From a virus, in the IMG/VR virus record IMGVR_UViG_3300030060_002740, positions 28,414-92,413 of that record: a stretch of 64,000 nucleotides of DNA. The stretch is one strand, 5' to 3'. Below the pieces are notes generated by a model. It saw only the letters and a list, made by a program, of their open reading frames with translations. It had not been told where the DNA came from and did no database searches. Both the position numbers and the translations under genes were made by a program. Below are positions 3,477 to 44,949 of the stretch, in pieces (position 1 is the first letter of the stretch; the number at the start of each line of letters is the position of its first letter).

Positions 3477-3780
3477 TATTATTTTCCTCCTTTTTCCAAA
3501 ATTCTGTATCGCCATAATTGTGATGATACCAACAATCTCTTTCGATTGCTTCTGCAAGTTCTTCCATTGATTTGAAGGTTGAATGACCTCCAATAATGAT
3601 ACGTTTCATACCTCTGTAAAGATATCTGTAAGTACATTGACCCGTCTTATACAGGGTAAATTTACGATGTAGTTGCGATACTTGCGGAACGCCAATACAA
3701 CTTTCTTTCATTCTATTTTCATAGAAGACAAAATCTCTTGGTTTGATTAGTATTTCAGATTTCACAAACTCCACCGGCAC
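3418..3780 (-). CDS. Hypothetical protein, 120 aa, overlapping both neighbours
   Basis: Begins inside the 3' end of the ribonucleotide reductase gene (26-base overlap) and its last 59 bases overlap the start of the next gene in a different frame. The core reads FTLYKTGQCTYRYLYRGMKR and FKSMEELAEAIERDCWYHHN, suggesting a small alpha/beta fold. The C terminus is low-complexity and basic (KEENNNENK, NRRRKGLGDK), which is where the overlap with the next gene lies. Family not recognised. Confidence 0.65.
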   Translation of the reverse strand: MPVEFVKSEILIKPRDFVFYENRMKESCIGVPQVSQLHRKFTLYKTGQCTYRYLYRGMKRIIIGGHSTFKSMEELAEAIERDCWYHHNYGDTEFWKKEENNNENKIQNPINRRRKGLGDK

Positions 3781-5647
3781 AGGCTAGTTCGCCTTGTAGA
3801 TTGGTGGAGTCTTCGTATTCTTTAACCTCACTCAAGTCAATTGAGTGGAGTTTACTAACGAGACTGTCGTATTCCAATAGGGTTATTTCTTCCATAGGTG
3901 CTTGTTCGTATGTACCCCCATCATAAGGTAGGAAGGCCATACCATTGTAGTATTCTCTGTTATCCCAAAGCCACTCGGTAACTCTCTTCCATTCAACATC
4001 ACGAACATACACTGTTGCTGATACGTTATGTGTATTATTTCCACGAACATGTCCAGTCTTTACCCATCCCTTTGATACTGCCTTAATCCTGTTAAGCATA
4101 CCAATAGCATCTTCATCACTACGAATTATCGCGGAAGTGTCGGGTATCTTTTGTGGGATAGTCAGCACTGCATCTCCATATGACATCCTATCGTCCTCAA
4201 TAAGTTCGGGCAGTTTCTCAACAAGATAAGGATATATTGCTTCTCCCTTGCCTATACGGATTCTTCTTGCATAGTAATATCCATACCATGCGTGAATACC
4301 ACTTGATGTACCTAACACACAACTGGTTGTTCCGGCAGGTTTGACACAAGTAGTTCTTGCTGCCGTATTAATACCAAACATTCTTGCAAATCGTTGATTG
4401 ATTATCTTAACCATATTCGCCCCATCTGATAACCACTCATCCTTTACCTTCTGACTAGCAATGCCAGTCATAGAAACACCAATCAGAGCATCCTTCTCTG
4501 TTGTTCTTTGCCATATGCCTCTAAGGTAGTGGAAGTCGGTGTATGTTGCTTGTAATGTACCCAAGAAAGATGCTGCCTCTACTCTTTGGAGGAAGTCTTC
4601 TTTTGACATTACACTCGATACGTTCACTTCACACAAATTACAAAATTGATAGGGTCTAAGTGCTATCTCACAACAGGGGTTAGTTCCCCAATCCTTGTCG
4701 TTGGATAGGTAAATACCGGGTTCACCGCTACCACTCTTTTCTATCTTCTTCATCAAAGACTTGAATGTGTCTTTGTCTAACTTATGGCGTAGTAGAACTG
4801 CTGAATTGTTTGCTCTACCTCTTTGTGGGTTTAGTTCCCACCAACTTCCTGATTTGCATAGAGCCATCTCTTCATCATCAGCACTGAATAGGCTGATTAA
4901 CGCTGCTCTGCGAATACCACCTGCTAAAACTGAATCAGCAATATGACAAACCATATCGTGAACTTGTATGGATGTCATCTTGTGACCATTAGGCATATCT
5001 CTCAACATACCTTCAATGATAGTAAGGCATATTCTAAGTGGTTCAGGACCGGGTGCTTTTCCTCCACTTGTCTTCAGTCTTGCACCCTTTGCTCTTATGT
5101 CTGAATAATCGAATCTTGGGCTTGCAGTTCTCTTGCCAGTATAACTGTTGAAAAGAACCTTAATTGCGTCAGCCCAACCTTCTATTGAATCTTGAATCTT
5201 ATATCTGTAAGTTCTATCAGATAGTGGTTGTTGAATATGTGGTAGTTTAGCCACATGATGTCTCTGAACAGAATAACCTACACCTGTTCCACCTAATAGT
5301 AAGAACATTGCTTCACTGAAAGATGTAATGTTATCAATTGGCATGTACGCACAATTGTATATTCTGTTCGGAGACAATTCAACTGGTTTACCTGCGAATT
5401 GCATTGACCTCATTGAAGGCAATACTTTCTTAGTCATCACAAAGTTATCATATACATAGTGTATCTGTTTTTCAACAACAGTTCTGTTTGTCTGACTAAT
5501 TGGAAGTGCCTTAATATGCTTAAGGTGCATATCTCGGTTCCTGTTACATATCTCTTCCCAAGTTTCCTTCCTTTCTTCTGCTTCGTTCCATTTTGCGTAT
5601 TTGGTATTAACCACTATTTCTGATAATACTTCATTTCCTAATTTCAT
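3755..5647 (-). CDS. nrdJ: Adenosylcobalamin-dependent ribonucleotide reductase (class II, monomeric type)
   Basis: Reduces ribonucleotides to deoxyribonucleotides for viral DNA synthesis, using B12 to make a thiyl radical. Key residues are visible: redox Cys99 (YNCAYMP), thiyl Cys325 with Glu327 in TNPCCEI, second redox Cys336 eleven residues later (the same spacing as Cys408/Cys419 of the Lactobacillus enzyme), the KPAGTTS phosphate-binding loop, and a swivel pair at the extreme C terminus (CAGGVC, Cys623/Cys628). GGTGVGYSV and SGEPGIYLSN are also typical. At 630 residues it is about 100 shorter than the Lactobacillus enzyme. No class I small subunit is near, consistent with class II. Upstream lies a promoter-like region with a palindrome at the expected transcription start. 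Confidence 0.95.
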   Translation of the reverse strand: MKLGNEVLSEIVVNTKYAKWNEAEERKETWEEICNRNRDMHLKHIKALPISQTNRTVVEKQIHYVYDNFVMTKKVLPSMRSMQFAGKPVELSPNRIYNCAYMPIDNITSFSEAMFLLLGGTGVGYSVQRHHVAKLPHIQQPLSDRTYRYKIQDSIEGWADAIKVLFNSYTGKRTASPRFDYSDIRAKGARLKTSGGKAPGPEPLRICLTIIEGMLRDMPNGHKMTSIQVHDMVCHIADSVLAGGIRRAALISLFSADDEEMALCKSGSWWELNPQRGRANNSAVLLRHKLDKDTFKSLMKKIEKSGSGEPGIYLSNDKDWGTNPCCEIALRPYQFCNLCEVNVSSVMSKEDFLQRVEAASFLGTLQATYTDFHYLRGIWQRTTEKDALIGVSMTGIASQKVKDEWLSDGANMVKIINQRFARMFGINTAARTTCVKPAGTTSCVLGTSSGIHAWYGYYYARRIRIGKGEAIYPYLVEKLPELIEDDRMSYGDAVLTIPQKIPDTSAIIRSDEDAIGMLNRIKAVSKGWVKTGHVRGNNTHNVSATVYVRDVEWKRVTEWLWDNREYYNGMAFLPYDGGTYEQAPMEEITLLEYDSLVSKLHSIDLSEVKEYEDSTNLQGELACAGGVCEI

Positions 5648-17774: not shown

Positions 17775-18430
17775 CTGTAACAAGAAAAAGATGTCGTCTT
17801 TGTATGCACGAAGACAGGGAAATCTTTGAGAGAGATTTGGAGAGTATGCACCTTCACCCTGATGACTTGGACAGTAGGATGAACTGGCCTAGTGGGACAT
17901 CTGCCAAACATCAGAGAAATCACATGGGAGGTTATGCTGATGCCTCTAACCCCAAGTGTGCATTGTGTGTTTATGAGAATCGTTCAGAAATTGAACAGGA
18001 ATTGTATTCGGGAGATATGACTCCTGAACTTGCCGCCAAGATAGTGGGTTGTTCAAAGGAGCAAGTTGTTAGACACATCAAGAAACATACACAACCATTG
18101 GTGCAAAAAGCAGCAGCACAAATATTGGCGACAAAGGAAGTCAATGAGATTGATACCCTAAGTGGTAACATCACTAACCTTGAGAGAAAGTTGGAAGCCT
18201 TGTTTGAGATAGAAGACTTAGACCACAAATCAATTGATTCACTGACAAAGTTAGCGAAGGAAGTAAGAGAGTCGCTAAAGTATCTAATGGAGTTCAAGGG
18301 TAAACTCGTTCACAGAAGACAAGACACAATCATTGTTCATCAAATGCAGATTATCAAAGAAGTGTTAGCACAAAACCATCCCGAAGTTTGGTTGGATGTC
18401 AGAAAACAAATGGAGGATAAGTTACAATGA
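17771..18430 (+). CDS. Zinc-finger DNA-binding protein, terminase small subunit candidate, 219 aa
   Basis: Start chosen at TTG 17771 with GAGGGGG eight bases upstream and TTGA coupling. Two repeats each have C-x-x-C followed by a helix and a His pair: CRLCMHEDREIFERDLES...HQRNH, and CALCVYENRSEIEQELYSGD...VRHIKKH, i.e. two C2H2-like fingers. A coiled coil (about 125-215) follows. DNA-binding domain plus oligomerising helix, placed a few genes before the large terminase, is what a small terminase subunit would look like; this is inference. A transcription regulator is the alternative. Confidence 0.6.
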   Translation: MTVTRKRCRLCMHEDREIFERDLESMHLHPDDLDSRMNWPSGTSAKHQRNHMGGYADASNPKCALCVYENRSEIEQELYSGDMTPELAAKIVGCSKEQVVRHIKKHTQPLVQKAAAQILATKEVNEIDTLSGNITNLERKLEALFEIEDLDHKSIDSLTKLAKEVRESLKYLMEFKGKLVHRRQDTIIVHQMQIIKEVLAQNHPEVWLDVRKQMEDKLQ

Positions 18431-32868: not shown

Positions 32869-32895
32869 ATCCCTACGAAAGACTTGAGGGGTCAG

Positions 32896-35487
32896 ATGCC
32901 GCAAACAGGAATAGAGTTTGAAAAAGAAACTAGTGGCCTCACAAAACAGGTCTTAGATTTCTTTGAGAAGGTTCGTTATTCCTATCTTTCAGCAAGAGAA
33001 AATCCCGATGACTACGGGGATGCTTGGAAAAAAACAGTAAAGGATATCAGAGAACAATTAGATTCTCTTGATGATTTCAGCAATGAGTTGAAAACTTATG
33101 TCAAGGAAGACTTGGCTCAATCTGATGAAGCATACAATCCAAAGTCAAGACAAGCAAAAGAATTGTACGAAGCGGTAAAAGAACTTAGGTTCAAATCCGA
33201 AAAAGTCAGTGACCCGTTTTCAAAACAACTTGGTGATGATGTAATACCTAAGTTGTTGAAGAATGAAGCATTATTCGCTTATTTTATTCATTATGCACTA
33301 CGCTCTCATGCAAATGCTTTACCTGAAAAAGCGTGGAAGGCAGTGGAACTCAAACCTGACAAGATAACTCAAAACGTGATGGGTTTGGATTTAGAGCCAA
33401 AGGACATACCGCTATACATCATAGAACATTATGGCGGGGAAGAGGAAGACACAAGAAGAGTAGAGAGTAAGTTCAAGGGGGCTTACAAATTATTGGAGAA
33501 GGTGTATGCCTCTCAATATGATGAGGGTAAATGGGAGAATCTTGTTGAGTTAGATATTGCTAAGAGTGAGCAAAAGCAAGAAATTGATTTTATCGTTCCC
33601 AACAAACCAATGTATAGAATCTTTGAGATAGATGACATGAAGGAAATCAAGGGTCTTACTGGTGAGTACATTGTCCAAGAGAAGTATGACGGGATGAGAA
33701 TACAACTTCACAAGTTCAATGGTAAAGTCAGAATATACTCTTTCAATGAAAAAGACATTACAGATAAGTGTTCAAAACAAGTTAAGCAATTAGAAAAGAA
33801 AGCATTTGGGGATTGTATCTTAGATGGAGAACTCATGTTGTTTGACGGTGATGAACCACTACATAGAGCAGATACAATAGCCCATGTTTTCAAGAACAAA
33901 AAGGGTGGTGAACTAAAAGCACACGTCTTTGATATTATGGTTCATGAAGGAAAGAACATCGCTGATGAAACCCTAAGAGAAAGAAATAACATTCTTCTGT
34001 ACCAATACGCTCAACATTCATCAGAAGACTTAGCATTCCCATCTAAGAAAGATACAAGGATTGCTGACTCCATAAAAGAAGTAGAAACCTATGCTAAAGA
34101 AATAATGCAGTTACCTGCATCAGAAGGTGTGGTAATCAAGGATATAGAATCAACATACTACATTGGGGTTAAGAAAAATCCTAAGTGGATTAAGTGGAAG
34201 AAGTTCGTTGACTTGGATGTTATAGTTTTAGATGATAAGAAAACAAAGAGCAACTTACATTCCTACACAATGGGAGTTGGGCCAGTAAATGCTGAAACTG
34301 CTAGGAACTACAAGACTGTTGAGTTTGAGGATAAAGACTACTTAGAAGTAGGTAAGGCTCTCAATACAAAACAATCAGTAAAGATTGGTAGCATAGTCAG
34401 AGTGAAAGTTGACGAGGTTAAAAAAGGAAAGGACGGTTTCAAATTGTTCTCTGCTAAAGTTATAGAGATACCTGAAGTAACACAATCGGATACTGTTGAA
34501 ACATTAGAGCAATTAGCAAGTAAGACAAAGAAATCTCTCAATGCAATCGGATACACCTTTGGAGAAACAGTAGGCGGTGCATTTGAAGTTACATCAGGAA
34601 TGAAGAACCCAAGAGGTCAGACTAAGAAAGATGTAAAGAAAGGATATTACATTACAGACCACATACATGGAACTGCTGAGATTATTCTAAAGGAGGACAT
34701 GGATGGTTTCACAATCTATGGGTTTGAGGGAGATTCTCTTATGCAGAAGAATGCTCTATACAACATAGATATGTGGAAAGAACAAGTGGTTAGTATAATG
34801 AAAAGTAAACGTTCTACCTTTAGATTGGCTATCCGCAATGAGATATTAGACAGTGGTAGAGATAATCTAAGGTTTGAGCAGATATTAGATTATGTCAAAG
34901 ACAAACATCAAGGAACCTTTGAGGATTTATTCGACTCAGATGAAGGAAGATTAATGTCTTGGATGAAACAACAAGAAGATTTGGTTTATCTTCATCCCAA
35001 CAAGTTTACTGCAAGAGAAGACGTATTGGAAAAGGATGTTGAAGAATTACAAAAAGAAGAAATGGGAAAGTATACAATTAATCTTAGAGAAGATAATAAT
35101 GTTGATTTAATCATAGAATACAAAGACGAGCGTATGGGTTGGACTATTGATATTGAAGAGTCAGAAGACATATACGAGTTGTTTGGTAAATCAGGTAAGT
35201 ATCCGGCTATTGTTATGAAGAATGCAGGTGAGCCTAAGAAAGTCTTAGATAAAGGAAATATAGAATTAGGAATTCAAAAAGATGGATACCATGAATATAG
35301 ATTAGATGGAGATAAGTTCCAAACAAGAATGCACTTTAGAGTAATTCCTTTAGATGAACAAAAGAGTTGGATAGCATGGACAGGAAAGAAACAGGAAATG
35401 TTAGACGATGAAGAGAACCCAAATAAATGGAATCTGAATGAAGACTCTTATGCTCAATTACCTTTCCCTTCGGATAAAAAAGAGTAA
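32896..35487 (+). CDS. ATP-dependent DNA ligase with extra N- and C-terminal regions, 863 aa
   Basis: Seals nicks with ATP. Nucleotidyltransferase motifs are clear: motif I EKYDGMRIQ with Lys263 as adenylation site, motif III ILDGELMLFDG, motif IV SEGVVIKD, motif V WIKWKKF, followed by an OB-type domain (KIGSIVRVKVDEVKKGKDGF). A helical N-terminal region of about 230 residues may be the DNA-binding domain. The last 300 residues are extra and include GYTFGETVGGAFEVTSGMKN and KDGYHEYRLDGDKFQTRMHF, of uncertain function. Start ATG 32896 has GAGGGG upstream. It is odd that a repair/replication enzyme lies among head genes just before the protease; it may act on packaged or entering DNA. Confidence 0.88.
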   Translation: MPQTGIEFEKETSGLTKQVLDFFEKVRYSYLSARENPDDYGDAWKKTVKDIREQLDSLDDFSNELKTYVKEDLAQSDEAYNPKSRQAKELYEAVKELRFKSEKVSDPFSKQLGDDVIPKLLKNEALFAYFIHYALRSHANALPEKAWKAVELKPDKITQNVMGLDLEPKDIPLYIIEHYGGEEEDTRRVESKFKGAYKLLEKVYASQYDEGKWENLVELDIAKSEQKQEIDFIVPNKPMYRIFEIDDMKEIKGLTGEYIVQEKYDGMRIQLHKFNGKVRIYSFNEKDITDKCSKQVKQLEKKAFGDCILDGELMLFDGDEPLHRADTIAHVFKNKKGGELKAHVFDIMVHEGKNIADETLRERNNILLYQYAQHSSEDLAFPSKKDTRIADSIKEVETYAKEIMQLPASEGVVIKDIESTYYIGVKKNPKWIKWKKFVDLDVIVLDDKKTKSNLHSYTMGVGPVNAETARNYKTVEFEDKDYLEVGKALNTKQSVKIGSIVRVKVDEVKKGKDGFKLFSAKVIEIPEVTQSDTVETLEQLASKTKKSLNAIGYTFGETVGGAFEVTSGMKNPRGQTKKDVKKGYYITDHIHGTAEIILKEDMDGFTIYGFEGDSLMQKNALYNIDMWKEQVVSIMKSKRSTFRLAIRNEILDSGRDNLRFEQILDYVKDKHQGTFEDLFDSDEGRLMSWMKQQEDLVYLHPNKFTAREDVLEKDVEELQKEEMGKYTINLREDNNVDLIIEYKDERMGWTIDIEESEDIYELFGKSGKYPAIVMKNAGEPKKVLDKGNIELGIQKDGYHEYRLDGDKFQTRMHFRVIPLDEQKSWIAWTGKKQEMLDDEENPNKWNLNEDSYAQLPFPSDKKE

Positions 35488-36776: not shown

Positions 36777-38171
36777 ATGTCAGGATACATTAAAACATTG
36801 AAAGACCTAGAAGCAGCAACATACGGATACGGTGGAAACACTGGTAATGCTCTACTCAAAGCGGGTGGAGTTGTTGGAGGATTCGGAACTCCTCACGATA
36901 CAGCAAGTAACCCATTTACTGCTGCCGCAGGTCTTGGCGACCTTTACAACGTTCTGTATGGACAGAAAGTTTGGTCTATGCTAAACCAAGAAGTTAACCC
37001 TCTTGCTATGTTGGCTAAGAGGCCATACACATCTTCAGGTTGGAGAGTTCTAAAGAGCCGACCTATCGGTGGTAGTGGTTCTTCCTTCGCAACAGGTTCT
37101 AACGCTGTAACTGCAAACATTTCGTCTGCAAACGCAGCAACACCAAGAGCAGATACAATTGGTGGAGTTGGAGAAAATGCAGTTCTTGGAACTGACTTTG
37201 TTGCACTTGCACCTGAGTACACCAAACTGTATGTCAGCCCTAAGACTATTGCACACCTGTTTGAGTTCTCAGAACTCGGTATGGAACTTGCTGCAATTGA
37301 TGATGGTGTCGGTGACATCAGGGCAATTGTTCGTGAGGACATGGGTAAACTACACGCAGAAGTTCAGAGCAAGATGCTAGTTATGCCTCTTGAGAAATAC
37401 TCAGAGAACGGAACAACTGGAATTGAGAAGAACTATACTTCTCTACTAAAGATTGTTTCATCTGCTGCGGAATTGGCTCAAATGGCTGATGACGATGTAT
37501 TCTACCACAACCAGACAAACAACGGAACTGCTGCACAACTTGCTGATGCAACCAGTATCTTTGGAACTGAGAGAACTGTAACTGTCAATACATCCGGTGG
37601 TAGTGGAAACTACACATACACTGGTGTTGCATCTTTCCTTGATGCAGAGGTTGACTTCGGAGCAAACTACACATCAGGCGGTTGCCGTGTACTAACTCTA
37701 AGTCTACTAAATGACATGATTCGCAGAATCAGACAGAATGGTGGAAACCCGAAAGTTATCATTACCGGATACGATACCATCCAAAAGATTGCTGACTTGC
37801 TACAAAGCCAAGAGCGATTCATGGACAGGAAAGAGGTTGTTCCAACCCACAACGGAGTTCGTGGTGTAAAGGGACAGGAAGTTGGATTCAGAGTTGCAAC
37901 ATACTATGACATCCCAATTATCCCTGCAAAGGATATGCCTTCTACTGGTAAGTCAACAAGCAACAGGCTTAGTGACATACTGGTTCTTGACACTGACCAC
38001 CTGTGGCTATCTGTGATGAAGCCTACTCAATACTTTGAGGATGGTATCACTAGTGGAAACCCATTCGGTGTTGGCAAACTTGGGAACCAAGGAATGTACC
38101 GCACTATGGGTGAGACTTGCTGTTCCTTCTTCAAGGGACAAGGTAAGATTACCAACCTAAAGAGTGCTTGA
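36777..38171 (+). CDS. Major capsid protein (HK97 fold)
   Basis: Forms the icosahedral shell. The call rests on position directly after protease/scaffold, length (464 residues), and composition: an N-terminal arm rich in Gly/Ala, then a large alpha/beta region with RVLKSRPIGGSGSSFATGSN, KLYVSPKTIAHLFEFSELGM, NPKVIITGYDTIQKIADLLQ and DILVLDTDHLWLSVMKPTQY, the last resembling the P-domain strand that closes HK97-type capsid proteins. GC-richer codon use than neighbours fits high expression. Strongest hairpin of the region follows at 38222. Confidence 0.88.
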   Translation: MSGYIKTLKDLEAATYGYGGNTGNALLKAGGVVGGFGTPHDTASNPFTAAAGLGDLYNVLYGQKVWSMLNQEVNPLAMLAKRPYTSSGWRVLKSRPIGGSGSSFATGSNAVTANISSANAATPRADTIGGVGENAVLGTDFVALAPEYTKLYVSPKTIAHLFEFSELGMELAAIDDGVGDIRAIVREDMGKLHAEVQSKMLVMPLEKYSENGTTGIEKNYTSLLKIVSSAAELAQMADDDVFYHNQTNNGTAAQLADATSIFGTERTVTVNTSGGSGNYTYTGVASFLDAEVDFGANYTSGGCRVLTLSLLNDMIRRIRQNGGNPKVIITGYDTIQKIADLLQSQERFMDRKEVVPTHNGVRGVKGQEVGFRVATYYDIPIIPAKDMPSTGKSTSNRLSDILVLDTDHLWLSVMKPTQYFEDGITSGNPFGVGKLGNQGMYRTMGETCCSFFKGQGKITNLKSA

Positions 38172-38712: not shown

Positions 38713-38993
38713 TGGTAGGAGGAGTAGCGGGTAGTCCAGTTAGAACCGCTAGTGCAGTGTTAAATGTAGGTAACTGTAAATTGAACAGTGTTCATTTTAC
38801 TTCTACTGGAACTGCAACTCTAAAAATATACGACCACAATAGCACAACTGTTGGTTCTGCTGATGAGGTCGCACGTCTAATTTTAACCGCTAATACAACA
38901 ACTGAGTTCGATTTGCATGGGAGAGCAATGGGAACAGGTATTACGGCAATATTAAGTGGTACAGGGGGAGCGTACTCTTGCACATGGAGTTGA
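38709..38993 (+). CDS. Small beta-rich protein, 94 aa, decoration-protein-like
   Basis: MMVGGVAGSPVRTASAVLNV then NSVHFTSTGTATLKIYDHNS and LTANTTTEFDLHGRAMGTGI: alternating beta strands with small residues, the style of phage head decoration or tail-fibre knob proteins. It overlaps the previous gene by four bases. Assignment as decoration protein is from position and fold impression only. Confidence 0.55.
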   Translation: MMVGGVAGSPVRTASAVLNVGNCKLNSVHFTSTGTATLKIYDHNSTTVGSADEVARLILTANTTTEFDLHGRAMGTGITAILSGTGGAYSCTWS

Positions 38994-38997
38994 TTGC

Positions 38998-39408
38998 TTG
39001 CCGGTTATAGACACAGATACACGCTTAATAATGACTATGCTCTTTGTTGGAGCAGTAAGTGGATTGAACATTTACGTATACGCCTTAGTGGGAGTTTCCT
39101 TCCCATATGGCGGAGTGGCCCATGCAGTGTTATTCGGAGTTAGCACTGTCGGTGGGATAATGATATTGAAAGTAGTATTAGATTTAATTGCCAATGACTT
39201 CATAGAGGAGTTCTTACTAAAGAGAAGAATAGATTCTTATTGGAATAGAAAGGCAAACGATGAAGAAAACAGAAAGAGGGTCAGAGAGTCCTTACTTCAA
39301 TTCCAACAGGCATATTATCAGAACCAACAGATGCAACAGAATGTTGTGGTTCAGCCAGTGAACGACAATACTCTAAGCCCTACTTTCTTGACACAGTTCC
39401 AAGAGTGA
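38998..39408 (+). CDS. Membrane protein with two transmembrane helices, 136 aa
   Basis: Two clear hydrophobic spans: LIMTMLFVGAVSGLNIYVYA with LVGVSFPYGG, and AVLFGVSTVGGIMILKVVLD. A charged cytoplasm-like tail follows (EEFLLKRRIDSYWNRKANDE) and a Gln-rich end. Start placed at TTG 38998 with GGAG eight bases upstream; an ATG ten codons on is possible. Next to another membrane protein and a Ras-like GTPase, suggesting a membrane-linked unit. Confidence 0.65.
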   Translation: MPVIDTDTRLIMTMLFVGAVSGLNIYVYALVGVSFPYGGVAHAVLFGVSTVGGIMILKVVLDLIANDFIEEFLLKRRIDSYWNRKANDEENRKRVRESLLQFQQAYYQNQQMQQNVVVQPVNDNTLSPTFLTQFQE

Positions 39409-39417
39409 GGTTAGTGC

Positions 39418-39645
39418 ATGGTCGGAGAAATCCTAATGGGGTTCGATGAATCCACATTAGCATATGACTTACAAAGAGCGCATTCTGCTGATATTTGGTT
39501 TCTAAGAGCAAGGTTCTACATTTGGGGAGCATTGGCTTCTGTCGGAACTTTTCTAATAGGCCATGCTTTGCCGATGTTCGGTGTTAATCTATACTCTATC
39601 TTTTGGGATGGGTTTGTCTCTCTTTGGAATCACTTATGGGGGTGA
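39418..39645 (+). CDS. Small membrane protein, 75 aa
   Basis: A central hydrophobic span FYIWGALASVGTFLIGHALP and a second amphipathic C-terminal segment VNLYSIFWDGFVSLWNHLWG rich in Trp. Placed between the two-helix membrane protein and the GTPase with six-base spacing. Possible holin-like or virion-membrane role; nothing in the sequence decides. Confidence 0.65.
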   Translation: MVGEILMGFDESTLAYDLQRAHSADIWFLRARFYIWGALASVGTFLIGHALPMFGVNLYSIFWDGFVSLWNHLWG

Positions 39646-39651
39646 AGCCTA

Positions 39652-40350
39652 ATGTCCGTGATGACGGGCTTTGCCATACTCATAGTTGAGGCTATGAACA
39701 AAATGTATCAACGGCTTCACTCTATACCGTTTGGGGTGTATGGTGCAAGCAAAGTAGGTAAAACAACATTACACCACCAATTGAGAACAAGAGGGGAAGT
39801 CCCTGCTATTACTGATAGAACAGTTGGTTTGCATCGAGCCACAAGAAAGTATGTCAAACTTGACGGTGATGCTCACACAATAAAATCAGCAGATGTTGGA
39901 GGAGAAACGGTTTATTGGAACGAATGGTTAGAAGACATGCGTGGTCGTCATGTAAAATACATTATTTTTATGATAGATGATAGACATATGGATAAGCACT
40001 ATGATATAGAACAACAACTATGTTGGACATTTTTAGTTGATACTATTTGTTCATCCTATTGGAATGTGAACGGAGTTAGCACTATTGGTGGATTGATGGG
40101 GAAGAAAAGAAAAAAGAAACCTCATGATTACCCAATAGCAGTATCTATTTGGGCCAACAAATATGACTTGTGGAAAGACAAATATGATTACAATGGAGAT
40201 ATGGATAAACACCCTATATTTGAATCATTTAAACCGGGTATGCAAAAGTTGAATGATAAGGGAATACCATGCCATAAGTATATTGTAAGTGCTAAATCTG
40301 ATTCGGAGATGGTATATAGGGGAATCCTAACAATCATAAAGGACTACTGA
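39652..40350 (+). CDS. Ras/Arf-like small GTPase
   Basis: All core G motifs are present in order: G1 GASKVGKTTL (31-40), a switch-like TDRTVGLH (55-61), G3 DVGGE (81-85), G4 NKYD (169-172) and G5 VSAK (212-215). DVGGE is the Arf/SRbeta/Rag-like form of DxxG. Length 232 fits, with a basic insertion KKRKKK near 151-156. The N-terminal 20 residues are hydrophobic/amphipathic. It would bind GTP and switch conformation; partners are probably the adjacent membrane proteins or the next gene. I do not know of a standard head-tail role for such a GTPase in tailed viruses. Confidence 0.85.
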   Translation: MSVMTGFAILIVEAMNKMYQRLHSIPFGVYGASKVGKTTLHHQLRTRGEVPAITDRTVGLHRATRKYVKLDGDAHTIKSADVGGETVYWNEWLEDMRGRHVKYIIFMIDDRHMDKHYDIEQQLCWTFLVDTICSSYWNVNGVSTIGGLMGKKRKKKPHDYPIAVSIWANKYDLWKDKYDYNGDMDKHPIFESFKPGMQKLNDKGIPCHKYIVSAKSDSEMVYRGILTIIKDY

Positions 40351-40362
40351 GGGAGGGATACC

Positions 40363-41037
40363 ATGTCTATGCAATTTCAGCCACCTAGTTTAATTGGCGC
40401 ACAGTCAGCAAATACAGGAATGAACCCATTCCTTGACAGACTCTCTGCTGCAAGAGCGGCAGGTTCAGTCATGCTTTATGAGTACAAAAGTGTTAAGCCA
40501 AAAAAACAATTGAAAGAAATAACTAAGGTTTTGATGCCCGAAAAGAAAAAATTGTTAGGAATAAAATACGGGTTCAAATACAACATAAAAGATAGATGTG
40601 TAGTATGTGGAACACAGAAGAATTGGGAAGCAGGGGACACAATGAGGCCACCCCTTCCTTTACATAAAGTGCGTAAAGGATACCCGATGAGAGGAACATA
40701 TTGTGAGAAACACGCTCAGATACATAGGCAGTATGAAATGTTAGAGCAACAAATGTTAGCAGAGGAACATGGTCTTTCTTTTAGTGCTTATATTCCATCG
40801 GCAAGAAGTTTGAATCCTCTAGCAAGTGGCCCTATGACTAGTCTAAAACAGGGAGATATTACTTCTTTAACATCATTAGGTTGGACTATCAAACCTCCTA
40901 TTGCTTTAGTAGAAACTAAAGAAGAAGAATTGTTCAGATTAATCATAGAAACTAATGGAATCAATAGTAGGATGAAAACTCTATTAGCCGAAGGCACTAG
41001 GGTATCATCAACACAAGACGAGGAGGATGTAGAGTAA
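40363..41037 (+). CDS. Zinc-binding hypothetical protein, 224 aa
   Basis: Pro/Gly-rich N terminus, basic segment KSVKPKKQLKEITKVLMPEK, then a zinc site DRCVVCGTQKNW with TYCEKHAQIHRQY about 40 residues later (C-x-x-C and C-x-x-H). Helical C terminus. It directly follows the GTPase and overlaps the next gene by one base, so it may belong to the GTPase unit. Confidence 0.65.
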   Translation: MSMQFQPPSLIGAQSANTGMNPFLDRLSAARAAGSVMLYEYKSVKPKKQLKEITKVLMPEKKKLLGIKYGFKYNIKDRCVVCGTQKNWEAGDTMRPPLPLHKVRKGYPMRGTYCEKHAQIHRQYEMLEQQMLAEEHGLSFSAYIPSARSLNPLASGPMTSLKQGDITSLTSLGWTIKPPIALVETKEEELFRLIIETNGINSRMKTLLAEGTRVSSTQDEEDVE

Positions 41038-41735
41038 TGGGATTATTTGGAACAAGTAACAGTTCGTTGTCTACTCAAATACAAGGACAACAACAAACTA
41101 ACTTCAAAGCCATGAATAATCTATTGACACTACAAGAAAATCACGTAGAGGATTTCTTTCAGTATCATGGAGAAGCATTTTTGGGTGCTTTGGAGAAGTT
41201 AATTGAGGATGTGGTAACACGTTCAGTAAGTCAAATGTTAACTAAGTTAGAGTTTAATCAGAGTTCAAGTGGTAATCTAACAATCGCTCCTGAAGCACTT
41301 ACTGAGTTTACGTCAATAACCCAAGAAAATATTGATTTGGATTTGGCTAATCTTTTGGCTACCGCAATAAATAGTGAAGTTGTTATGCAAAGGAGAATGG
41401 CTAAACAACAGTATCTTGAAGCACAAGGGTTCTCCTCTCCTTCTCAACCACAACCTACAACAACTCCAATGGGTATGAATCCAAATGGATTAGACCCATC
41501 ACAGATACAAGGTGCTAATATGGCAGTTGGAATGAATAACACCATGATGCAACAACAAATGGCTTTCAATAACCAATCAGGATATCCTGTTCCTCCTTCT
41601 GGATATGACAGTATGAACAATCCATATTGGATTGACCCCGCAACAGGCCAACCAACATACAGTCCACCGCAGAGTGGATTAGGTATAGCATCAGGACTCG
41701 GAAAAGCAGTTGCATGGGCTAAGTGGTTAGCATAG
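41037..41735 (+). CDS. Hypothetical protein with Gln/Pro-rich tail, 232 aa
   Basis: Helical N-terminal half (LLTLQENHVEDFFQYHGEAF, VVTRSVSQMLTKLEFNQ), then a low-complexity Met/Gln/Pro/Gly region (QPQPTTTPMGMNPNGLDPSQ) and an end SGLGKAVAWAKWLA. Looks like a structural adaptor or virion protein. Follows the GTPase block with a one-base stop/start overlap. Confidence 0.6.
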   Translation: MGLFGTSNSSLSTQIQGQQQTNFKAMNNLLTLQENHVEDFFQYHGEAFLGALEKLIEDVVTRSVSQMLTKLEFNQSSSGNLTIAPEALTEFTSITQENIDLDLANLLATAINSEVVMQRRMAKQQYLEAQGFSSPSQPQPTTTPMGMNPNGLDPSQIQGANMAVGMNNTMMQQQMAFNNQSGYPVPPSGYDSMNNPYWIDPATGQPTYSPPQSGLGIASGLGKAVAWAKWLA

Positions 41736-41750
41736 GATGGGGTCTGATGG

Positions 41751-43874
41751 ATGGCGGAGATAAAAGTAACAAGTAGGGTTGTTGACGGGTTAAAAGTAGG
41801 ATTTATTCTCAAACCCGAAAAGAAAAAACAATCTGTTGATGACTTGTTTAGTGATGATGAGTTATTCAGAACTCTTACTGCTTTTATCTTCAATGGTATT
41901 TCTAACACATCACCCATGAAAGGAGTTCGTAGATTAACTAGAAAATTAATCTCACTAGATGATTCTGATTATAGAGGTACAGACTTAGAGTTCAATGAAA
42001 TAGAGTATGAAAAATATCTTGATAACTACTTTACTAAAATAGAGAAAGCACAATTAGATGAATTAGTTGATATGCTTGAGAATATGAATTTCGTTACTAA
42101 CTCAGGTAAAAATCGTGCTTTTTCACAAGGACTTCGTAAAGAGATGGCAAAAGAAAATATTAGACTTTTAGATTTGAGGAACGACTTGAAAGTTAGTAAA
42201 TTACTAGGTAAGAGATACGGTAAAGGATTAGATGAAACTGATGTTGATGATAGTGTAAAAGGTAAGAAGGCTGCTGAGAAAAGAAGAGAGGAAAAATATG
42301 AGCAAAGAAGCAGTAGATTGTTAGGGGCTTTTGATAGAAGTGAACCCGCACTCTATCCATCAATATTAATGAAGCACATTACTATTTCAGGTGGAGTAAT
42401 AACTATTGATACAGAAGAATATTTCAAAGAGATTTTCAAGAAAGAAGGGTATGGAACAATAGGAACAGGCTCATTTCAATTTAATGTAGGCGGAGCATCA
42501 AAATCAACATTTGAAGGTAAGGATGAAGAATCTAAGAAGGAAAAGGATAAGAGATTAGATAGAGAAGGAGAGGAACAAGCATTAGAAGACTTTGGTTCAG
42601 ATATGGAAACTGATGAAGGCATAACTCAAGAAGAAGTAAAAATGCTGACTAAAGCAAATCCTGATGCTATCATTTCTGAAAACTATGGACAACCAGTTGA
42701 CCAATTAGTATCTCTTGTGATTTTAGATGGTGGTAAATATGAATTGTTTGTGTTTGGAGAAAGACAGTCTTTCAGTTCTAATAGTAGAGATGAGAATATG
42801 GAAGATGTTTGGAATGCTATTCAAGACGTAAAGATGCCTGATAAGAAGTCATTACTTGATATTCTTCGCTCACAGAGAAAATCAGTATTGAAAGACACTA
42901 TCCTTTCTTTCATTACTCCAAGAGAAAATAAGATATCCATAGGAACTGCTACTATGACGTTAAAGAGAAAAGAATGGAAAGATGAAGAAGATTTTATTCT
43001 TTGGTTGACCAAAGGAGCAGGTAGTGAGCAAGATAAGAAAGTCGTCACAAAGGCGAGAAAACTTTCTGAACATCTTATGAAGATTGATAATCAGATAGAT
43101 GCTATTGAAAGTAGTTGGAATGAGTATAATACCAATGTTTCTTTTGATAGATTTTTCTCATACTTAATGTCTAAACAAAGAAAGGAAATGGTAGGTTGGC
43201 TTCAAGATTTAATCACAAGCATAAAGGATGACAAGTATAATGTTGATAATCCAATACAACAAGAAACAAAACCTGTCGTAGATGCAGAAGGAAACCCTGT
43301 TTTAGATGAAAGAGGATTTGCAGAGCGAGAGGTTGTAAGAGAGGGGAGGATACAGGTTGAGCAACAGGGTAAGAAAGTTAAATACGAACCAGTATATGAT
43401 AACCATGAAAAACTCATGGGGTTATTATCCACATTAAGAAAACAATTGCGTAATAGTAAGATAACAGAGGGACTTAACGTTGGTCAGTTCTTTTTACAAG
43501 AAGGAAAGAGAGAGGACTTAATCTTGGAAGAACTACAAAAAGATGTATTAGACGCTCTAAAAGGACAAGGAGACTTTCAGACTTACAAGGATGAGGAAAC
43601 AGGAGAGTCTACTGAATTTAGAATGACTACAAACAAATACGTTCCAATAATCAAATACACATCAAATGCTCCTAAGAAAATGGTGATTGATACTAAGTTA
43701 GACGGAATATCAAGTAGAGAGTTCAAGCGCGGAAGATTCAGTGAATCAAGAGTCAGAGCAACTGATAAACAGAAGGAAGAAAGAGCAGGTAAAGGGGATA
43801 AGAATGACCCTGAAGAATTACAACTTGTTTATAATGAATATATGGCTTTGAAGGAATTAATAGGAAGTGTATGA
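41751..43874 (+). CDS. Large helical hypothetical protein, 707 aa
   Basis: MAEIKVTSRVVDGLKVGFIL at the start, then charged helical regions resembling those of the 599-, 609- and 928-residue head-region proteins, with a conserved-looking ITISGGVITIDTEEYFKEIF segment and a globular part near ENYGQPVDQLVSLVILDGGK. No Trp motif. Position before the connector proteins suggests head or neck. Family not recognised. Confidence 0.6.
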   Translation: MAEIKVTSRVVDGLKVGFILKPEKKKQSVDDLFSDDELFRTLTAFIFNGISNTSPMKGVRRLTRKLISLDDSDYRGTDLEFNEIEYEKYLDNYFTKIEKAQLDELVDMLENMNFVTNSGKNRAFSQGLRKEMAKENIRLLDLRNDLKVSKLLGKRYGKGLDETDVDDSVKGKKAAEKRREEKYEQRSSRLLGAFDRSEPALYPSILMKHITISGGVITIDTEEYFKEIFKKEGYGTIGTGSFQFNVGGASKSTFEGKDEESKKEKDKRLDREGEEQALEDFGSDMETDEGITQEEVKMLTKANPDAIISENYGQPVDQLVSLVILDGGKYELFVFGERQSFSSNSRDENMEDVWNAIQDVKMPDKKSLLDILRSQRKSVLKDTILSFITPRENKISIGTATMTLKRKEWKDEEDFILWLTKGAGSEQDKKVVTKARKLSEHLMKIDNQIDAIESSWNEYNTNVSFDRFFSYLMSKQRKEMVGWLQDLITSIKDDKYNVDNPIQQETKPVVDAEGNPVLDERGFAEREVVREGRIQVEQQGKKVKYEPVYDNHEKLMGLLSTLRKQLRNSKITEGLNVGQFFLQEGKREDLILEELQKDVLDALKGQGDFQTYKDEETGESTEFRMTTNKYVPIIKYTSNAPKKMVIDTKLDGISSREFKRGRFSESRVRATDKQKEERAGKGDKNDPEELQLVYNEYMALKELIGSV

Positions 43875-43875
43875 A

Positions 43876-44949
43876 ATGAGTAAGGTTCGTTCTCCAAGTG
43901 ATTTTACAGATATTAACGTGAACTACGCAATAGGAAATGGACATTATACCACACATACAGATGTTTCTAATCTCTTGCAAATAAGTGCCTTCAGTGATAC
44001 TACTACTCCTACTAGAGCGGAAGTAGGTAAGATAATCAAGAGAGTAGAGGAAAAGATTGATGATAGCATAAAACAATCTTACAGGCCAATAATACATCAT
44101 GAGGAGTTCTATTCTTTTGATGGATGGAATAAGGGTTCATACCCTGTTCAGCCTTATCGTGATTATGTAGGTTTTATTCAACTATCACAACCCAAGATTC
44201 AGAAGTTAGTTCGGCTAGAAGTATGGCAAGGTGATAGGTATATTGACTTGGCATCTGCAACTGCTAGGCTAACCCTACCAACTTCTGTTACTAATAGTGC
44301 ATGGACAATATCTCTCACTGCCGGAACTTACACTTTCAATCTCGTAGAGGGAACTCACTTCTATGATAACTTTGGTTCAAGCACAACCGCAAGTCAACTG
44401 TCTGATGCAATCAATGAGAGATTCCCCGCAAAGACTGCTAGGTTTACGGGAGAAACTGCTCGTAAGACTTTGAAGGACACCACTAATACGGTGAGCATAT
44501 CTGATTTCTTCTATGCAACAGTTGATTCTGAGAATGGAGATACCGTTGTAATATCCTCATTACTATTGGGTAATGATGGTTCAAGTTGTAATATAACATC
44601 CACATTCGGGACTATTGAATCATTTACTGGTAATCAGGACTCAGGAAGAACAAGAGACTTTTGGCAGATGAAAAAAGAGGGTAAGATATTCTTCTATCAA
44701 GAGTACCCTCATGTTACTAATCATTCAATCAGAGTTGCATATGTTGCGGGTGATGGTAGAGTACCTGCACCAATACATGAGGCAGCGACTAAGTTTGTGG
44801 CGGCAGAAGTAATACGACATGATGATAACTCAATCATGATTGCTGAAACAGAATCAAATATAGATTTGAAAACTAAGCATGATATTCTTCTTGAGGAAGC
44901 AAATAAGATAATTGACGGCAAGAAAAACATAATCCATTTCATAACGTGA
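43876..44949 (+). CDS. Head-tail connector-type protein, 357 aa
   Basis: Start at ATG 43876 (MSKVRSPSDFTDINVNYAIG) with AGGAAG upstream. The helix RAEVGKIIKRVEEKIDDSIK and the end HEAATKFVAAEVIRHDDNSI with EEANKIIDGK resemble the helical core of HK97 gp6/SPP1 gp15-type adaptors. In between is a beta domain with TYTFNLVEGTHFYDNFGSST. Followed by two short genes in the usual neck-gene order. Moderate confidence. Confidence 0.65.
   Translation: MSKVRSPSDFTDINVNYAIGNGHYTTHTDVSNLLQISAFSDTTTPTRAEVGKIIKRVEEKIDDSIKQSYRPIIHHEEFYSFDGWNKGSYPVQPYRDYVGFIQLSQPKIQKLVRLEVWQGDRYIDLASATARLTLPTSVTNSAWTISLTAGTYTFNLVEGTHFYDNFGSSTTASQLSDAINERFPAKTARFTGETARKTLKDTTNTVSISDFFYATVDSENGDTVVISSLLLGNDGSSCNITSTFGTIESFTGNQDSGRTRDFWQMKKEGKIFFYQEYPHVTNHSIRVAYVAGDGRVPAPIHEAATKFVAAEVIRHDDNSIMIAETESNIDLKTKHDILLEEANKIIDGKKNIIHFIT

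Follow-up and report, generated by a model that had tools for sequence, protein, structure and literature searches.

What is a small GTP-dependent switch doing among the head genes of a tailed virus? The question is raised by a 64 kb window, the whole stretch of DNA analysed here, drawn from a 92,413-base virus record, in which a small GTPase (39652–40350, + strand) lies between the major capsid protein (MCP; 36777–38171, + strand) and a protein (43867–44949, + strand) that we read, from its position and profile, as a head–tail connector, the counterpart of HVTV-1 gene 125. The initial annotation had put the GTPase in the capsid region, behind two small membrane proteins and ahead of a CxxC/CxxH protein, had considered such a slot an unusual place for a GTP switch accompanied by membrane proteins, and had suggested that the GTPase might steer contact between virion and membrane, egress, or a GTPase pathway of the host. 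Our analysis bears out the coordinates, the neighbors and the setting, and supports the view that the arrangement is non-standard. The four genes do co-occur, but the unit comprises five, the last of which (41037–41735, + strand) had been missed.

The virus is a magrovirus, that is, a tailed virus of marine archaea, as the earlier reference to archaeal viruses had rightly anticipated. The MCP, portal, TerL and protease are recognizable in the window; a B-family polymerase (PolB) is coded in two pieces on the opposite strand elsewhere in the 92.4-kb record, and an ATP-dependent DNA ligase and a TFB zinc ribbon were detected. The only relatives of the MCP among named phages were from the Druskaviridae, which are the nearest, and methanogen-associated tailed viruses, in a collection from which named Magrovirales genomes (e.g., ON649702) did not turn up. 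These capsid relatives, the split PolB, the ligase and the TFB zinc ribbon are the grounds for our assignment to the Magrovirales. The features used to recognize this group, namely the head module, the virus's own B-family polymerase, the ATP-dependent ligase and the divergent gene blocks, are all present, a genome of 90–110 kb also being part of the definition, and this gene content matches the published description (PMC10768690, PMC12999244).

The GTPase has 232 residues, compared to about 223 in its homologs, the window copy having a 9-residue insert in a basic loop. It displays the P-loop or G1 motif GASKVGKTT (residues 31–39; 39742–39768), the G2 threonine T57 of an RTVG motif (39820–39822; PTIG in Arf), the G3 motif DVGGE (residues 81–85; 39892–39906) with E or Q at the catalytic position, the G4 motif NKYD for guanine specificity (residues 169–172; 40156–40167), and the G5 motif SAK (residues 213–215; 40288–40296), all on the + strand; four of these, G1 and G3 to G5, had been annotated correctly from the outset. 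We aligned 134 distinct homologs from two clades, with a lowest pairwise identity of 56%, and found G31, G36, K37, T38, T39, T57, D81, G83, G84, N169, K170, D172 and S213-A214-K215 to be invariant in all of them. At the catalytic position 85, following DxGG, 98 of them have E and 36 have Q. A loss of nucleotide-binding residues, against which the initial annotation had cautioned, was thus seen in none of these homologs. The G1, G3, G4 and G5 motifs, with the guanine specificity conveyed by NKxD and SAK, mark the protein as a small GTPase of the Ras superfamily, and because NKxD and SAK are invariant, a different P-loop NTPase, such as a kinase or an AAA protein, was ruled out.

Pfam profiles place the GTPase weakly among MMR_HSR1, SRPRB, Roc and Arf (best single-member E-values: Arf 3.8e-5, SRPRB 5.5e-5, Roc 7.1e-5). 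When members are scored individually, the window copy (15.2 bits) and the copy from contig L054 (18.1 bits) do not reach the Arf (PF00025) gathering cut-off of 22.3 bits. Two AlphaFold models were built, both of the GTPase monomer: the first had a pLDDT of 65.5 and a poor P-loop, the second, with both clades in the alignment, a pLDDT of 69.8 and a pTM of 0.70, and the switch regions are of low confidence in both. Apart from these low-confidence switch loops, a Rossmann-like G domain is recovered, with a Foldseek probability of 1.00 to G-alpha, Arl and Ras structures. Searches of the PDB with the second model returned G-alpha and Arf-like proteins (Arl10B, Arl8b) at the top by E-value and Arl1 with the highest target-normalized TM score (0.71) among the matches listed; given these best matches, we read the predicted fold as that of the Arf/G-alpha branch of the Ras superfamily.

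In common with the Arf/Arl/Sar proteins and SRP receptor beta (PF00025, PF09439), the viral proteins show the patterns GxxxAGKTT, TxG, DxGG[QE] and ANKxD[LI] and an N-terminal helix. They differ from these families in that most members have E at the position of the catalytic glutamine, a basic loop is inserted ahead of G4, partner proteins of the eukaryotic kind are lacking, and individually scored members stay below the curated Pfam cut-off. No meaningful homologs were found in named phages or plasmids. Searches of a library of viral predicted structures gave clear small-GTPase matches only to Ras/Rab-like GTPases from giant viruses of eukaryotes (Nucleocytoviricota), the matches from tailed phages being of low probability and to other folds. 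The giant virus proteins differ from the magrovirus versions in that they belong to viruses of eukaryotes and are of host Rab, Ras or Ran type, and the matches give no sign of a fixed cassette of several genes.

Directly before strand 1 and the P-loop, where Arf and SRP receptor beta also carry one, the GTPase has a hydrophobic helix (residues 3–22; 39658–39717, + strand) in which G6, F7, I9 and E13 are invariant. This helix is likely a membrane anchor, and it could be either in-plane or spanning, since a hydropathy threshold scores it as membrane-spanning in 85 of 174 copies. Upstream, separated by gaps of 9 bases from each other and 6 bases from the GTPase, are the genes for M1 (38998–39408, + strand; 136 residues, TTG start) and M2 (39418–39645, + strand; 75 residues). 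M1 features two predicted transmembrane segments (residues 10–28 and 43–61), followed by a basic helical segment and a Q/P-rich tail with SPTFLTQFQE as its last residues. We rejected an upstream GTG start at 38956 for M1, because its homologs begin with MPSIDTDTRL at the TTG at 38998. M2 combines a very conserved N-terminal segment, DESTLAYDLQRAHSADIWFLRARF, with a tryptophan-rich C terminus, and has one transmembrane segment in 145 of 172 homologs, the window copy scoring slightly under the threshold. Downstream of the GTPase follow the 224-residue zinc protein (40363–41037, + strand; CxxC at 40597–40608, CxxH at 40702–40713), with the arrangement C..C...YC..H in 162 of 170 copies (the exceptions among those listed being three with FC for YC and one truncated version), and the fifth protein, an acidic, Q/P/N-rich product of 232 residues with a C-terminal GIASGLGKAVAWAKWLA helix. 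Only the GTPase belongs to a recognizable family; M1, M2 and the fifth protein do not, and the zinc protein matched no family in Pfam.

The order M1, M2, GTPase, zinc protein and Q/P-rich protein is fixed. The co-occurrence search proposed in the initial annotation gave an all-or-none pattern: among the 170 loci in which both MCP and connector are visible, 123 have all five genes, 47 have none, and none has a partial set. As many of these loci were reached via the GTPase, the count is biased, and we therefore ran two scans led by the capsid. The first, an alignment led by HVTV-1, reached a sister clade of magroviruses and, among haloarchaeal viruses, the Druskaviridae, both without the cassette; the second, with the window's capsid protein as query and restricted to loci extending 5 kb or more downstream, found the five genes complete in 53 of 53 loci. 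In a capsid tree with 80 rows, a single change, on a branch with an SH-aLRT of 88, accounts for where the cassette is present; the tree by itself cannot separate gain from loss, and the simplest reading of these sequences is one gain, since the cassette is missing from the sister clade as well as from the Druskaviridae outgroup. Further, no copy of the GTPase was found elsewhere in 11 whole records without the cassette (sister clade, Druskaviridae and other capsid-related viruses), five of which are 88–111 kb long. The cassette is thus confined to one magrovirus clade, and it is dispensable for being a magrovirus, since the sister clade manages without it; there, the interval between MCP and connector contains decoration-type proteins and one protein of 600–885 residues.

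In the Druskaviridae, as exemplified by HVTV-1, a homologous MCP and a connector-type protein flank the same slot and a small transmembrane protein lies inside it; unlike the magrovirus interval, that of HVTV-1 has no GTPase, zinc or Q/P-rich cassette protein, and no GTPase was found in the rest of the HVTV-1 record. The lone small membrane protein, gene 124 (L086:11199–11531), lies between the decoration proteins and the connector; it carries no annotation and is a candidate for a role in lysis or in contact with the membrane. We found nothing usable on HVTV-1 virion proteomics. One 184,733-base IMG/VR contig (L118), twice the usual genome length, codes for two distinct cassette GTPases separated by about 92 kb and likely represents two related genomes joined end to end by assembly.

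Across 124 loci, the mean p-distance of the GTPase is 0.27, the lowest of seven genes (MCP 0.31), and its median dN/dS of 0.05 is likewise the lowest (0.07–0.11 for the others), ratios that are rough because synonymous distances are near 1. These comparisons show the GTPase to be under strong purifying selection and, by sequence distance, the most conserved member of the cassette. In clade 1, distances correlate more strongly among the cassette genes (0.61–0.86) than with the MCP (0.44–0.66), a pattern compatible with either a functional unit or block transfer. Mirror-tree partial correlations (GTPase with zinc protein 0.33 and with the fifth protein 0.32 in clade 1; GTPase with M2 0.43 in clade 2) are only suggestive.

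The closest design we are able to offer for comparison is the ArvABC (OapABC) system. Vesicle budding in Haloferax volcanii is driven by an Arf-like GTPase whose N terminus forms an amphipathic helix; vesicle numbers fall strongly when this GTPase is knocked out and rise when it is overexpressed, and a zinc-ribbon protein from the same operon limits budding and has been proposed to act as a GAP (PMC10927574). The magrovirus cassette resembles it in pairing an archaeal Arf-like GTPase, with an N-terminal hydrophobic or amphipathic helix, with a zinc protein, and in a Pfam assignment of the GTPase split equally between MMR_HSR1 and Arf. It differs in having two membrane proteins instead of OapB and OapC, an additional Q/P-rich protein, a zinc protein of a different sequence family, and a location within a viral structural operon. 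Neither OapB/ArvB (PF09846; H. volcanii control positive) nor the OapC/ArvC zinc ribbon (PF09845) had a match in eight records, seven from magroviruses and that of HVTV-1, and membership in ArvABC by way of these proteins was accordingly rejected. Because both are absent and the zinc protein of the virus has no counterpart in Pfam, we speak of an apparent resemblance in design and not of membership by the tests run, ArvA itself being compared by description only.

These features lead us to favor, tentatively and at somewhat short of even odds, the view that the cassette is a late membrane-bound G-protein machine for membrane remodeling or membrane-site assembly, operating much as ArvABC or eukaryotic Arf does and serving assembly or exit. 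The GTPase would be held at the host membrane via its N-terminal helix, M1 and M2; in its GTP state it would cluster or recruit partners, such as the cytoplasmic tail of M1 and the Q/P-rich fifth protein, which would then bend or locally organize the membrane late in infection. The resulting change might serve head assembly at the membrane or exit, and the zinc protein might regulate or read the GTP state, as proposed for ArvC. Late expression, membrane localization, a physical complex and the direction of action are what we infer from this arrangement, which suggests that the virus remodels the host membrane during particle building or release. Even a correctly placed cassette at the membrane need not bend it, and the remodeling reading has against it the four familyless cassette members, the absence of OapB and OapC, a sister clade that manages without the cassette, and the low-confidence switch regions. 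The more specific proposal that a tailed archaeal virus runs its own Arf-type machine, in which a viral G protein would act with membrane anchors, a regulator and an effector devoted to it, to bud or scission the host membrane late in infection strikes us as rather doubtful.

The main rival to membrane remodeling is a role in the virion or in head completion, with the cassette products as assembly factors or minor virion proteins and GTP hydrolysis driving ordered assembly, for example, of a membrane-interacting vertex or injection complex that leaves the host membrane unbent. The location between decoration-type proteins and connector, the small membrane protein of HVTV-1 in the same slot, and cassette distances that track those of capsid and connector all speak for it. 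Yet the sister clade makes the same type of head without the cassette, and no tailed virus known to us completes its heads with the help of a Ras-like GTPase; on balance, we hold this role to be possible if unlikely. A lower probability attaches to a host-directed mimic, by which the viral GTPase would compete with a host Arf- or ArvA-like GTPase and block vesicle release or another pathway. In other systems viruses commonly mimic host switches, and GTPases of the ArvA type are present in 14 archaeal phyla (PMC10927574), but a decoy need not retain all catalytic residues, four fixed partners and a place in a structural operon, and no drift or loss was observed in the GTPase or the cassette.

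Superinfection exclusion or lysis timing, with M1 and M2 as a regulated pore or blocker and the GTPase as the timer, appears about equally improbable: it would account for small transmembrane proteins within a late gene block, and a convincing holin was not recognized among the proteins scanned, but M1 and M2 show no holin-specific sequence or topology and the cassette is far more elaborate than known timers. Lastly, Ras-like GTPases are common enough in archaea (PMC10927574) for a passive auxiliary gene recently captured from the host to be envisaged, as the initial annotation had done. What we see instead is a single old acquisition inherited all-or-none with four other genes, a GTPase conserved across hundreds of contigs, dN/dS of 0.05 and complete cassettes in every locus of the second capsid-led scan; the all-or-none loci, the single change on the capsid tree, the scan and the dN/dS rule out passive cargo, for which we would leave only a minute probability.

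Magroviruses have been described as globally distributed, and their hosts, the Poseidoniales, are among the most abundant surface-ocean archaea; no member has been cultured, and to our knowledge no exit route from the host is known. A conserved G-protein cassette in the structural block offers a testable handle on how magroviruses leave their hosts, and an Arf/G-alpha-branch switch in a prokaryotic virus bears on GTPase-driven membrane bending outside eukaryotes. If the remodeling reading were true, Arf-type remodeling would be a further envelope strategy for tailed viruses beside holin–endolysin lysis, and the cassette would mirror, in a virus, the vesiculation machinery of archaea. In the literature searched, papers on magroviruses and on archaeal tailed viruses included, none joined magroviruses and a GTPase; a prior one-line annotation of the protein is possible.

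Several other features of these genomes deserve mention. The ATP-dependent ligase domain resides in an 867-residue protein (32884–35487) with long additional N- and C-terminal parts, coded within the structural block, with the terminase and portal genes to one side and the protease gene to the other. Among the genes of the block with the opposite orientation are those for a ThiF-family (E1-like) protein (655–1242, − strand) and a ribonucleotide reductase of the B12-dependent type (3758–5647, − strand). Two magrovirus contigs (L087, L088) had been placed in a bacterial MAG labeled Maricaulis sp. and are probably mis-binned virus DNA. Finally, seven proteins upstream of the capsid protease (starts at 18427, 26869, 28832, 29168, 29679, 30175 and 32001, + strand) have the same tag at their N terminus, M[STD]WxxxL[KR] in this or a closely similar form. 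It begins proteins in 68 related loci, including those of the sister clade, is absent beyond residue 30 in frames of at least 150 residues (1.1 million residues), and looks like a common targeting or packaging peptide.
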